From an uncultured Lachnospiraceae bacterium (GTDB lineage: Bacteria; Bacillota; Clostridia; Lachnospirales; Lachnospiraceae), in the NCBI GenBank assembly GCA_949948735.1, contig CATLGV010000006.1, forward strand, positions 1 through 64,000: a stretch of DNA of 64,000 nt, given 5' to 3'. This document shows, in pieces, positions 3,367-48,944 of the stretch (its first letter is position 1; each line of letters starts with the position of its first letter). Position numbers and translations under genes: made by a program. Below the pieces are notes generated by a model. It made no database searches. It had not been told where the DNA came from and saw only the letters and a list, made by a program, of their open reading frames with translations.

Positions 3367-5427
3367 ATGCATAGAAAAAATACCATATTGATAGTGGATG
3401 ATGAAGCTATCATCAAAACATCCCTCAAGGACGTGTTAAGCAAGGAGTTTGACGTGCTGCTGGCGTCAGACGGCAAGGAAGCGCTGGAGGTCCTGGAGGA
3501 AAATCTGAATGAAATTGCCGTGATTGTGCTGGATTTGATTATGCCGGTCATGGACGGTTTTCAGTTCATGGCCGAGTTCAATACCCATCAGGAGTACGCG
3601 AATATACCGGTTATTGTGGCAACCTCCAATGACGACGAATATTCAGAGCAGAAGTGCCTTGAGGCCGGTGTGTGGGATTTCGTGATGAAGCCCTACAATC
3701 CGGTGCTTTTGTGTTTTCGGATAAAAAACGCGATTGAGAAGAGCCGTATGATCATGGCGGAGCGCGATCCGGTTACGGGACTTTATTCCAAGTTCAAGTT
3801 TTACCAGACAGTGCGCAGGATGCTTCTGGAGGTGCCGGGAGAGAAATTCGCTTTTGTGCGGTTTGACATAGACCGGTTTAAGATGATCAATAATTTTTAC
3901 GGCATCAAGGAGGGCGATAAGGTATTAAAAAGCATTGCTGCCGAGCTGCGGAGGATTGCGACCGTATTCGATAACTTTGTCTACGGGCGTCTTGAAAATG
4001 ATATATTTGCGGTCTGCATGCCCTACAAGGAGGAGAATATCGAGCTGCTTGCCAACGCGCTGCAGATTAATATGAAGAAGCTCAATAAAGATTATAATAT
4101 CAAGGTTTCGTGCGGCGTCTATGTGATCAGCGACTATAACATGGATGTGTCGGAGATGTATGACAGGGCGTTTCTTGCGGCAAAAAGCTGCAAGGGCAAG
4201 TATGTGCAGAATATCGCATATTATGATGAGAGCATGATAGAGAACATGCGCCAGGAGCAGTTCATTATCAATGAGGTCAATAAAGCGCTCGAGGAGGAGC
4301 AGTTTGCGGTGTATCTCCAGCCCAAGATTAATCTGGTGACGGACCGCTCCTACGGCGCGGAGGCGCTTGTGCGGTGGATGCATCCCGAAAAGGGGATGAT
4401 TTCCCCGGGTGAGTTCATTCCGGTTTATGAGCGCAACGGCATTATAGGGCGTCTTGACCAGTATATGTGGCGCCATGTGTGCGCGCTGCTGCGCAGATGG
4501 CTGGACGAAGGGCGCAGTCCCAATCCGATTTCGGTAAATGTGTCCAGAGTAAACATATACAATCCGCATCTGGTGGAGATCTTCAAAAATCTGATCACCG
4601 AGTATCGGATACCGGCGCATCTGTTGAATCTCGAGCTGACGGAAAGCGCTTTTACCGAGGATCAGGATCTGGTGATGCGCACCATGAGCAGGCTGCGTGC
4701 GATGGGCTTTAAGATTATGATGGATGACTTTGGAAGCGGCTATTCCTCGTTGAACGTGCTCAAGGATATGGAGGTCGACTATCTCAAGGTTGACATGAAA
4801 TTTCTGCAGCAGGAGCAGGGCTTTAACGGAAAAGGGGAGAAGGTGCTTACCTCCATTATCCGCATGGCAAAATGGTTACATATGCCTTCGATTGTTGAAG
4901 GCGTGGAAACGGCGGAGCAGGTGGATTTCCTCAAATGCATCGGCTGTGAATACGCGCAGGGCTATTTTTATGCAAAGCCGATGCCGGTAGCGGATTATGA
5001 GGCGTTTCTGATCAAGGAGGAAGAGCTTGGCGCGAATACGCGCAACGATGAAAATACCGGAATCGTCGGAGAGCTCTGGAATACGCGCTCCAATGTCAGC
5101 CTCTTCTTTGACATGCTGGAGGTGCCGATTGCGATATATGAGTACCGCAGGGAAAAGCTGGAGCTTTTGCGGGCCAACAGGCGTTATGAGAACGAGGTTT
5201 CGATGGATGCGGATGAGGATATTTCGGAGCATGAGCGGCGTATGGAGGCAGTTACACAGCTGCTGAAGGAGGCCTTTGGCAAGCTGATAAGCGGGGAATT
5301 CTGTGAACCGATGGAGCTTGAGTTCGCGGCGGATATCTGGTACCGGATAACGGTGAAAATGATAGGCAGGCGTTCGGATACGACAATCATCATGGCGACC
5401 TTTTACGATATCAGCGACTATAAATAA
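3367..5427 (+). CDS. Response regulator with REC, degenerate GGDEF and intact EAL domains (c-di-GMP phosphodiesterase)
   Basis: This cytosolic protein of about 686 residues starts with a receiver domain (VDDE, phospho-acceptor Asp in VLDLIMPVMDGF, Lys in MKPYNP). A GGDEF-like domain follows whose signature is replaced by RLENDIF, so it should not make c-di-GMP. The EAL domain keeps its catalytic motifs: GAEALVRW, NVSR, ELTES, MDDFGSGYSSL, VDMKF and EGVET. About 110 C-terminal residues look like a PAS-type fold ending in TFYDISDYK. It should therefore degrade c-di-GMP under phosphorelay control. No cognate kinase is adjacent. ATG 3367 was chosen because AAAGGAG lies 9 bases upstream, while ATG 3358 is too close to it. 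Confidence 0.92.
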   Translation: MHRKNTILIVDDEAIIKTSLKDVLSKEFDVLLASDGKEALEVLEENLNEIAVIVLDLIMPVMDGFQFMAEFNTHQEYANIPVIVATSNDDEYSEQKCLEAGVWDFVMKPYNPVLLCFRIKNAIEKSRMIMAERDPVTGLYSKFKFYQTVRRMLLEVPGEKFAFVRFDIDRFKMINNFYGIKEGDKVLKSIAAELRRIATVFDNFVYGRLENDIFAVCMPYKEENIELLANALQINMKKLNKDYNIKVSCGVYVISDYNMDVSEMYDRAFLAAKSCKGKYVQNIAYYDESMIENMRQEQFIINEVNKALEEEQFAVYLQPKINLVTDRSYGAEALVRWMHPEKGMISPGEFIPVYERNGIIGRLDQYMWRHVCALLRRWLDEGRSPNPISVNVSRVNIYNPHLVEIFKNLITEYRIPAHLLNLELTESAFTEDQDLVMRTMSRLRAMGFKIMMDDFGSGYSSLNVLKDMEVDYLKVDMKFLQQEQGFNGKGEKVLTSIIRMAKWLHMPSIVEGVETAEQVDFLKCIGCEYAQGYFYAKPMPVADYEAFLIKEEELGANTRNDENTGIVGELWNTRSNVSLFFDMLEVPIAIYEYRREKLELLRANRRYENEVSMDADEDISEHERRMEAVTQLLKEAFGKLISGEFCEPMELEFAADIWYRITVKMIGRRSDTTIIMATFYDISDYK

Positions 5428-46280: not shown

Positions 46281-48824
46281 CTATCTTTTTATCATAAGCT
46301 TTGCGCCATATTCATCCTCGCATGGGGCCGAGTTATCCAAAAGTTCTGCAAATTCCGCCTCGGTCATAGGCTTGTAGAAATAATAACCCTGTATCATGTC
46401 GCAGCTTACCGACTGCAGGAACGCGAGCTGCTCCCTGGTTTCCACGCCCTCGGCCACGACCTTTGCGCCGACGTCGTGCGACAGTCCGATAATGTGCTTG
46501 ATGATTGATTCCGCTTTCCCATCCTTTCCAATCTGCGAGATAAAGCCCATGTCGATCTTAATGACGTCAAATTCAAAATTTTCAAGCGTCGAGAACGATG
46601 ACATCCCACTGCCGAAGTCGTCCAGCATCAGTGAAAGGCCAAGCGCTTTCATCTCGTTCAGGAAAGAAATCGCATCCGATTCAAGCTCCGCGTAAGCCGA
46701 TTCTGTTACCTCCAGCTTTAGCATATCCCTGATATTTATCTGGTGCACCAGCTTCGTCTTCAGCATCTCGAGCAGCCTGACGTCATAGAAATCCACTCTG
46801 GACAAATTGACCGCGCATGGAACAACCTTCTGGCTTTTGATCATCCGGCCGTAATTAAAGGCGATGACGCTGTTTACCATAAAGCTGTCAATCTTCGTGA
46901 TACAGCCTTCCTTTTCAAACACCGGCACAAACTGCCCCGGGGAAATCATTCCCCGCTCCGAATGGCGCCATCTGATGAGGGCCTCCGCGCTCACGATTTC
47001 TCCTGTCATCGCATCGACAACAGGCTGGTAATATGTCTGGAACTCCCCCCTGGCAAACGCATTGTCAATCTGCGAAATAAGCCATCTGCGGTTCATATAG
47101 TCGTCGCTCATTTTCTGGTTACATACGGCATAACAGCTGCCATGTGCCGGGTCAAGTGTTTTCTCTGCCAGCTTCGCGTGGTCAAGCAGGCGCTGAATTT
47201 TCATTCCGTCTCCGCTGGCCTCACCGTCCTGTCCATTCGCATGTTCCTCGCCGCCGATATGGCAGATGCCGCACCTGATCAGTATCGGCAGCCGCTTGGA
47301 CTCCTCCACATAGCACTGGCAGCACATCTCCTCAAGCCTGTCGTCCGTAAGATACGCTGTCTTTACAATCAGGGCAAAATGGTCGCTCTCAAGCCTCGCC
47401 AGCAGTACGGGATGCAGCGCGCTTGCCAAAACGTCCCTCGTCATAAAAATCACCATGTCGCCGCTGTGACGCCCCAGCAGGTCGTTCACTGCCTTGAACC
47501 CCTGCACGTTGGCATAGACGACAGAATATCCTTTCCGGTATTCAGGCTCCTTCAGCATTTTCTCCGCCTGGGTAATAAATCCAAGCTCGGAATACTCGTC
47601 CGTCATCCAATCGCGGTCAAGAACCATGGAAATGTCGGTGTAGCTGACCATCAGCCGCCTTTTATCGCCGGCAATCAGCCTGGCACGCAAATCATACGCT
47701 TTGATTTCATTCCCCGTGTCCAGATGGACGGTCCTTGCGTATTCTCTCTTATTTGCGATTTCATCCAAAATGACCTCGAGCGCGCTTTGCTCCAAAAAGG
47801 GCTGCTGCTCCTCCGGCACCACAAGCTTTTCCGTCAGCAGGCGGTTCAGCTCCTCTAAGGTGTCAATATTGACAGGAATGATTCCCCTCTCCAGCAGAAA
47901 ACCGCCGATATGGAGACATGTGGCGCTTCCGCTCTCCGAATCGACTTCCACGATGCAGTCATACCTGTCCGATACGATGGAATGAAAATATCTTGCGCCG
48001 TCGTTGACAGACGCCGAACACTCGCGCCTGAGCCTTGCGTTGTCAGAATGGATAATCCCGGCATGGAGCGGTCTTGTTCTGCCATTCTCCATAATTTCGC
48101 CTTCGCCAAAAAACTCCGTGACGCCGTTTCTGATGATAAAATAAGCGCCGTCGGGAATCAGGTAGATTTCCCTGCCGCGGCTGTCCTGCGCCAAAATCTC
48201 GTCCACAAGCTTCATGCCGTCTAAAACGACGGTCTTCTCATAGTCGATATGCGGCATGATATTGATTCCGGTAAGGCCAAGGCCGTCCGTGAATTTCACA
48301 AAATCCGGGTCTGTCGCTTCCCCCGGAAGCTCCGGCGGCAGATACACATTCTCTGCGGCATTCACCGCTCCGGCGCTGAGGCCGATAAAAATCCCGTCAA
48401 AGATCTCCCTGTTATGGATAAGCTCCTTTAACCCGCATCGTTTCATAAAAGCGTTTTCTGTTGGCGCATGACCGCCTGAGAGATAGAACACGTCCGCCCA
48501 TTGCAGCGCGTCCTTGAGCGCGTTTTGCGCAGCGTCTGCCCTGGAGCAGCCTGTCTGTTCCCGATATGTATTGATTGCCCTGTCGTCAAAGCATCTGATT
48601 TCCTCGATAAAAAAGCCCGCCAGTGAAAACGCGTCGCGCATTTCCTCCGTCACATGGTCGGACGCCCCGGCATCGGACGGGTCGCATGCAAAGACAAGAA
48701 ATCTGGCATGGTCCGGCCAGTATCTTTTCAAATTATCGACAAAGCCGTTGGACGCATCCACAGGCTTTGGCACATACTTCTTCGGCTGGTATTCCACAAA
48801 GCTGCTGGTTAAAAAAACGACCAT
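46281..48824 (-). CDS. Peptidase S51-like domain fused to degenerate GGDEF and intact EAL (c-di-GMP phosphodiesterase)
   Basis: One 847-residue soluble protein. Residues 1 to about 235 are a peptidase S51 (dipeptidase E/cyanophycinase-like) fold with YLSGGHAPTENAF, nucleophile Ser150 in GLSAGA and His192 in MPHIDYE. Residues of about 240-410 look PAS-like. A GGDEF-like domain has RLESDHF instead of its signature and should be inactive. The EAL domain keeps SAEALIRW, NLSR, EVTES, LDDFGSG, KIDMGF and AEGVET, so c-di-GMP hydrolysis is expected. GGAGG precedes ATG 48824. I know no family with this architecture. A peptide such as cyanophycin-derived Asp-Arg could be its ligand or substrate. Confidence 0.9.
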   Translation of the reverse strand: MVVFLTSSFVEYQPKKYVPKPVDASNGFVDNLKRYWPDHARFLVFACDPSDAGASDHVTEEMRDAFSLAGFFIEEIRCFDDRAINTYREQTGCSRADAAQNALKDALQWADVFYLSGGHAPTENAFMKRCGLKELIHNREIFDGIFIGLSAGAVNAAENVYLPPELPGEATDPDFVKFTDGLGLTGINIMPHIDYEKTVVLDGMKLVDEILAQDSRGREIYLIPDGAYFIIRNGVTEFFGEGEIMENGRTRPLHAGIIHSDNARLRRECSASVNDGARYFHSIVSDRYDCIVEVDSESGSATCLHIGGFLLERGIIPVNIDTLEELNRLLTEKLVVPEEQQPFLEQSALEVILDEIANKREYARTVHLDTGNEIKAYDLRARLIAGDKRRLMVSYTDISMVLDRDWMTDEYSELGFITQAEKMLKEPEYRKGYSVVYANVQGFKAVNDLLGRHSGDMVIFMTRDVLASALHPVLLARLESDHFALIVKTAYLTDDRLEEMCCQCYVEESKRLPILIRCGICHIGGEEHANGQDGEASGDGMKIQRLLDHAKLAEKTLDPAHGSCYAVCNQKMSDDYMNRRWLISQIDNAFARGEFQTYYQPVVDAMTGEIVSAEALIRWRHSERGMISPGQFVPVFEKEGCITKIDSFMVNSVIAFNYGRMIKSQKVVPCAVNLSRVDFYDVRLLEMLKTKLVHQINIRDMLKLEVTESAYAELESDAISFLNEMKALGLSLMLDDFGSGMSSFSTLENFEFDVIKIDMGFISQIGKDGKAESIIKHIIGLSHDVGAKVVAEGVETREQLAFLQSVSCDMIQGYYFYKPMTEAEFAELLDNSAPCEDEYGAKLMIKR

Positions 48825-48944
48825 AAAAGCTTCCTCCGTTTCTTTAATGCATCTTTTATAATCTTAGCATTCCTTCGGTAATATTGCAATATCCTTTGCC
48901 GGCGGGCTATGCGCTGCGCGCGTCACATAAAATTTTCATACATC

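Follow-up and report, generated by a model that had tools for sequence, protein, structure and literature searches.

c-di-GMP phosphodiesterases of the sensor-GGDEF-EAL type have PAS, GAF, haem-PAS and similar domains as their known inputs, and the sensor domain usually lies N-terminal to the GGDEF-EAL tandem. To our knowledge, many c-di-GMP phosphodiesterases have no known input signal. Among proteins of the S51 peptidase fold, passages of a paper in mBio give the catalytic triad of PepE as Ser120-His157-Glu192 and that of MccG as Ser133-His168-Asp196 (PMC9239234), and a passage of another paper gives that of Streptomyces Orf2 as S134-H170-D198 (PMC11078827). The mBio paper also has a clade II, to which one passage, with reference to Yadav et al. 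2019, assigns S51 proteins that lack peptidase activity (PMC9239234).

The gene described here, which lies on the minus strand at 46281..48824 of the window (the whole stretch of DNA that was analysed, 64,000 nucleotides), brings these two kinds of protein together in a single open reading frame of 847 residues with an ATG start and zero internal stops. The first-pass annotation had proposed that this frame joins an S51 domain to an EAL domain, and Pfam matches above the cut-offs bear it out: Peptidase_S51 (PF03575) at residues 95-234 (E 4.4e-8, 33.5 bits; cut-off 23.9), GGDEF at residues 404-504 (E 1.7e-8) and EAL at residues 585-819 (E 5.9e-66, 222.7 bits). The annotation had also reported a nucleophile Ser and a His in the S51 part, a degenerate GGDEF motif and a conserved EAL domain; all were found (Ser150 in GLSAGA, His192 in MPH, ARLESDHFA at residues 476-484, and ten checked EAL active-site residues, all intact), and its view that neither half looks decayed holds for the window copy. 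The features are as follows; counts refer to the 43 fusion proteins and 25 EAL-less S51 proteins described below.

46281..48824, minus strand: whole gene, S51-middle-GGDEF-EAL, 847 residues (open reading frame and Pfam)
48833..48837, minus strand: GGAGG, ribosome-binding-site-like, 5' of the ATG (sequence)
48060..48824, minus strand: S51 domain, residues 1-255 (Pfam at 95-234; whole-domain alignment with stand-alone S51 proteins)
48375..48377, minus strand: codon of Ser150, predicted nucleophile (Ser in 36/43 fusions and 25/25 EAL-less S51 proteins)
48249..48251, minus strand: codon of His192, predicted catalytic His (His in 41/43 fusions)
48150..48152, minus strand: codon of Asp225, predicted third triad residue (Asp in 43/43 fusions; aligned with an Asp of DR_1070)
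47625..48041, minus strand: middle region, residues 262-400 (no family detected in Pfam and PDB profile searches)
47313..47615, minus strand: degenerate GGDEF domain, residues 404-504 (Pfam match)
47376..47390, minus strand: ESDHF in place of GGDEF, residues 479-483 (sequence)
46368..47072, minus strand: EAL domain, residues 585-819, ten checked active-site residues intact (Pfam and residue check)

The highest 19-residue hydropathy mean of the protein is 1.48, so a membrane segment is not expected. The nearest large ORFs flanking the gene encode a MutS domain V protein and an alpha-L-rhamnosidase; both are on the plus strand, and the fusion gene on the minus strand thus looks monocistronic. 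A search of the whole window against Rfam at the gathering threshold gave zero matches, riboswitches included. An ORF of 371 residues runs antisense to the fusion gene (46743-47858, plus strand), with similar antisense frames at the fusion loci L024 and L025, and is probably a codon-usage shadow. An operon partner was considered and rejected, since neighbours compared by eye at 16/43 fusion loci included no gene common to all; the same comparison at 15/25 loci of EAL-less S51 proteins likewise gave no common gene. The related pair L062 and L088 shares neighbours, with a Mur-ligase-type gene adjoining the fusion and a Ham1-type (nucleotide pyrophosphatase family) gene a few kilobases away (L062:2458-3048, L088:11170-11760); a Ham1-type gene also adjoins the fusion at L024:5345-5992, and its presence near the fusion may be due to chance.

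The 43 different S51-GGDEF-EAL fusion proteins all come from one family, Lachnospiraceae; the genome samples overlap, and 43 is the number of distinct fusion proteins gathered from all of them. The full-length fusion occurs in 5/38 genomes of the window's genus. Among 397 genomes of the family, the S51 domain was found in 50 at E 1e-15, and in seven of these, the window's included, it shares a 779-860-residue frame with GGDEF-EAL (the copy of genome G401 has a run of N). The 392 genomes of the order gave 24 matches, of which 11 have a long frame, all in Lachnospiraceae and one of them 662 residues long (G659); in the six genomes of two other families that gave a match, the frames are short. 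Across the phylum (398 genomes), the window's own genome was the sole match at E 1e-15. Another genus of Lachnospiraceae is rich in matches (29/61 genomes, 26 with a long frame), and a scan of GTDB contigs gave three fusion loci, all Lachnospiraceae; L024 appears from its coordinates to be the copy of genome G003, and L025 and L026 are two additional copies. At L084:5684-7672 a 662-residue open frame stops inside the EAL domain, which reflects either a broken gene or an assembly fault.

In the S51 tree of 67 rows, from which (as from its alignment) L060 was excluded for a run of N in its S51 part, 42 fusion domains lie on one side of a branch (SH-aLRT 100 in a quick tree) and the 25 EAL-less S51 proteins on the other, which places the fusion at one origin. 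A 42-row tree of the sequence that is left when the S51 part is removed, built without L084 because its frame ends in EAL, repeats many groups of the S51 tree: the window's genus with L025 and L026, most of the 61-genome genus, L058 with L059, L062 with L088, and L061 with L086. L086 (G701) and L090 (G686) belong to the 61-genome genus, yet in both trees they group elsewhere and have long branches, which makes transfer or old duplicates likely. Most simply, the two trees would reflect a single fusion event followed by joint divergence of the two halves. Chance does not explain the fusion; the first-pass annotation had asked whether relatives carry it, and many do, as the 5/38 genomes of the genus and the 43 proteins attest. 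A plasmid origin was considered and rejected: the plasmid records that match the S51 part number 42, every one from Lactococcus and below 60% identity. Of these distant plasmid relatives, the 10 listed carry the annotation peptidase E or type 1 glutamine amidotransferase-like.

The S51 part of the window protein falls outside the models of two named enzyme families. It scores 22.7 bits with the cyanophycinase model (TIGR02069; cut-off 126.6), and the PepE model (NF003642, PRK05282) matched 2/27 members at E 0.01, the window member not among them. The best solved-structure matches of the S51 profile (27 rows: 12 of the 43 fusions and 15 of the 25 other S51 proteins) are Lmo0363 and DR_1070, at E 4.2e-4 and 4.5e-4, both of which, in Yadav et al. 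2019, reportedly lack Asp-X dipeptidase activity. The first-pass suggestion of an Asp- or Arg-containing dipeptide as ligand finds no footing in these scores and relatives; given which solved proteins lie nearest, the existence of a clade II with S51 proteins that lack peptidase activity, and the scores with the cyanophycinase and PepE models, Asp-X specificity is not to be assumed. A second S51 match above the cut-off lies in a 225-residue frame of the window's genome (G000:C27:35068-35454). In two Lachnospiraceae genomes the S51 domain is joined to an MraW-type (RsmH-like) methylase (L063:6083-7858, L064:4845-6614), and at L065:5473-7164 to a PfkB-type carbohydrate kinase, with the triad intact in all three; this subfamily is thus a recurring N-terminal module in Lachnospiraceae.

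The middle region was compared in 30 aligned members, out of the 36 left after L060, L084, L026, L145, L143, L132 and L069 were dropped. At E 1, the window member had no Pfam match, no Pfam family was hit by two or more of the 30 members, and PAS families were absent from the hits; the profile of the same 30 members matched zero solved structures in the PDB at E 1. In 20 relatives compared, none of the other three regions of the protein is lower in identity. The middle region contains a stretch, D-I-T...D-x-D-W-M-T-D, that resembles PAS-GGDEF junctions. The first-pass annotation had called residues 262-400 or thereabouts PAS-like; given that the profile searches at E 1 returned nothing usable, and no PAS, the region is not given that name here.

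Downstream of the middle region, the GGDEF motif is degenerate in 43/43 fusions, following the pattern [ED][SNAG]D[HN][FY]; the window protein, with ESDHF, lacks the GG(D/E)EF motif of diguanylate cyclases, and cyclase activity is not expected. L147, L149 and L150 have DN in place of DH in this motif; all three also lack the S51 Ser and lie within one subclade of seven rows. Ten residues of the EAL domain, E614, N673, E705, E708, D735, D736, K756, E792, E795 and Q812, were checked as the active-site residues seen in EAL structures. They are intact in 42/43 fusions, the exception being L084, whose frame ends within EAL. The window's genome (84% complete) holds nine EAL matches above the cut-off and one PilZ match, so c-di-GMP signalling proteins exist in it. 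At 3751-5010 the window encodes part of a second GGDEF-EAL protein (708-residue frame); its identity to the fusion, over residues 400-829 of the latter, is 32%.

The S51 active site has a different history. The predicted triad of the window protein is Ser150, His192 and Asp225, the last assigned by profile alignment with the Asp of DR_1070, and position 225 is Asp in 43/43 fusions. The first-pass annotation had singled out the third S51 catalytic residue as the one to check, and at the level of sequence the window copy has it. Glu165, which is nearly invariant (Glu in 42/43 fusions), was considered for this role for its spacing after Ser150; Asp225 was preferred because the acid of the published triads stands 28-35 residues past the His (here 33) and because of its alignment with DR_1070. 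The whole triad is present in 36/43 fusions. The nucleophile position is Ser in 36, Gly in six and Asn in one, the Ser-less proteins being L088, L089, L090, L147, L149, L150 and L151, whereas no EAL residue is lost in any complete protein; the Ser is kept in 25/25 of the EAL-less S51 proteins examined. On the 42-row S51-free tree six changes of state at this residue are needed, of which well-supported branches impose at least five; shuffled labels gave values as low in 138/500 cases, so the losses show no excess clustering. His192 is lost in 2/7 Ser-less fusions vs 0/36 Ser-bearing ones (Fisher p 0.023, kinship ignored). Other positions of the domain are kept: Asp225, Ser215, Asn155, Gly152 and Pro191 occur in 43/43 fusions, so that all seven Ser-less rows keep Asp225 and Ser215, and six of these keep Glu165, with Asp replacing it in one. 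AlphaFold models of residues 1-404 and of the full-length protein, made with four-row alignments, had mean pLDDT values of 44.0 and 42.8, too poor to use.

In one sister pair, substitution rates suggest that loss of the Ser did not release the S51 domain; the S51 and EAL ratios are rough, since dS is often saturated or undefined. In that pair, L149/L150, with both members Ser-less, the S51 part has dN 0.195 and dS 2.72 (near saturation), a ratio of about 0.07 (about 95 nonsynonymous and 110 synonymous changes), and the EAL part has a ratio of 0.027; on this rough measure the Ser-less S51 domain is still under constraint. Since L149 has Asn and L150 has Gly at the nucleophile site, the Ser may have been lost once or twice in this pair. 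Seven pairs with Ser in both members gave S51 ratios of 0.047 to 0.165. Of four pairs with Ser in one member, two were estimable (0.115 and 0.196); the higher value, from L087/L089, is the highest estimable S51 ratio and is what would be expected under relaxed constraint. S51 dN is low relative to dS in all the pairs with an estimable dS (10 of the 12), one Ser-less pair included, and exceeds EAL dN in 10/12 pairs compared.

We favour, with a probability of roughly 0.55, the reading of the protein as a one-component c-di-GMP phosphodiesterase of the cytosol, with the S51 fold as its input (sensor) domain and an S51 ligand setting the EAL rate. With most cleft residues kept and an expendable nucleophile, the S51 domain has the profile of a binding domain, and the EAL site, preserved in all complete proteins, has that of an output; the two together point to S51 as the input domain of a phosphodiesterase. 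The S51 domain also sits N-terminal to GGDEF-EAL in the fusions. A small peptide-like or aspartyl-containing metabolite would bind in the cleft of the S51 active site; whether the cleft is occupied or empty would be relayed through the middle domain and a GGDEF domain that has lost catalysis, and an active EAL domain would then alter its rate of hydrolysis of c-di-GMP to pGpG. Most members, the window copy included, are probably still able to hydrolyse the ligand, judging from their triads, and in these Ser-His-Asp members slow hydrolysis by S51 would probably reset the sensor; Ser-less members would bind the ligand only. We conclude that ligand binding is the signal and that hydrolysis is secondary. 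Counted against the sensor reading are the triad kept in most members, the higher dN of S51 than of EAL in most pairs, the L087/L089 ratio, the low-pLDDT models and a neighbourhood that points to no substrate.

The first-pass annotation had offered two proposals, that the S51 part sets EAL activity or that c-di-GMP controls a peptidase. The conservation of the EAL site in complete proteins, set against the repeated loss of the S51 Ser, favours the former and disfavours the latter. A receptor EAL domain with S51 as output would be compatible with the domain order alone. EAL receptor proteins such as FimX and LapD typically lose catalytic residues, whereas here 42/42 complete proteins keep all ten and it is the site of the would-be output that decays, which makes this arrangement very improbable. 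About as improbable is an inert S51 passenger, fused by chance and merely aiding the folding or dimerisation of the phosphodiesterase, and we place it last. The faster evolution of S51 than of EAL in most pairs would suit it, as would the faint S51 signal of some members (in Pfam scans of whole fusions, covering the window protein and seven others, the S51 match fell, among those seven, below the cut-off in L088 and L061 and was absent in L090 and L151), but a passenger would not account for a triad kept in 36/43 fusions, five positions (Asp225, Ser215, Asn155, Gly152 and Pro191) unchanged in 43/43, or an S51 dN that stays low against dS even in a Ser-less pair.

A weightier rival, possible though in our view on the doubtful side, is a bifunctional enzyme in which S51 turnover matters in itself, peptide or amide hydrolysis is tied to c-di-GMP breakdown and the Ser-less proteins are secondary derivatives. 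The window copy has the full triad, as do 36/43 fusions overall, and the His is lost solely where the Ser is lost, so hydrolysis seems to be selected for in most members and its role may exceed a reset; according to passages on MccG (PMC9239234) and Streptomyces Orf2 (PMC11078827), Ser-His-Asp S51 enzymes are active elsewhere. Against it stands the Ser state, which changed at least five times while EAL was retained and so shows turnover to be dispensable in several lineages. The solved structures closest to the domain are those of Lmo0363 and DR_1070, and a passage of the mBio paper assigns S51 proteins that lack peptidase activity to clade II (PMC9239234).

Within the sensor reading, we tentatively suggest, as a possibility rather than an expectation, a passage from enzyme to sensor: the domain would have begun as a hydrolase that reported its substrate by occupancy or as an acyl-enzyme while destroying it, and in several lineages would now be a pure binding pseudo-peptidase. 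For the signal, an (iso)aspartyl peptide and a compound resembling an aspartyl nucleotide are then both conceivable, and if so, peptide turnover or antibiotic exposure would be tied to c-di-GMP. Since natural variants with and without the peptidase Ser exist, ligand binding and hydrolysis are separable by comparison.

The S51 domain of the fusions shares with PepE, cyanophycinase, MccG and Orf2 the nucleophile elbow, the His and an acid at the third triad place, and passages on MccG (Asp196, PMC9239234) and Orf2 (D198, PMC11078827) show Asp there as well. Unlike these enzymes, it is fused to GGDEF-EAL and mostly carries a GGHxPTEN, GGHxPTQL or GGHxPTQN motif. Lmo0363 and DR_1070 were solved as stand-alone proteins, whereas the window S51 domain is part of a fusion. 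Stand-alone GGHVPTQN S51 proteins of Lachnospiraceae and its order are the same domain over its whole length (35-41% identity to that of the window in the 15 compared); they are mostly about 230-250 residues long, without GGDEF-EAL, and always keep the Ser among those examined.

On the side of the output, the top family scores of the window protein are with the DibA, GepA, PRK10060 and DosP models, and the cut-offs of these named families lie far above its scores (220.5 bits vs a cut-off of 980 for DibA). The best solved-structure match is 4rnh, 'Motility regulator' (MorA). In the open-access literature (titles and the starts of abstracts, outside subscription papers and preprints), no paper on an S51-GGDEF-EAL fusion was found. 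Sensor-GGDEF-EAL phosphodiesterases are already known; one with an S51 domain as input has, on the evidence of the open-access search, not been described. With phosphodiesterases of the DosP, DibA and MorA type the window protein shares the GGDEF-EAL tandem, the degenerate GGDEF and the intact EAL site; their inputs, as generally known, are PAS, GAF and haem-PAS domains, whereas its own input would be an S51 peptidase fold, and second-messenger enzymes would thereby gain a peptidase fold in their range of sensor domains.
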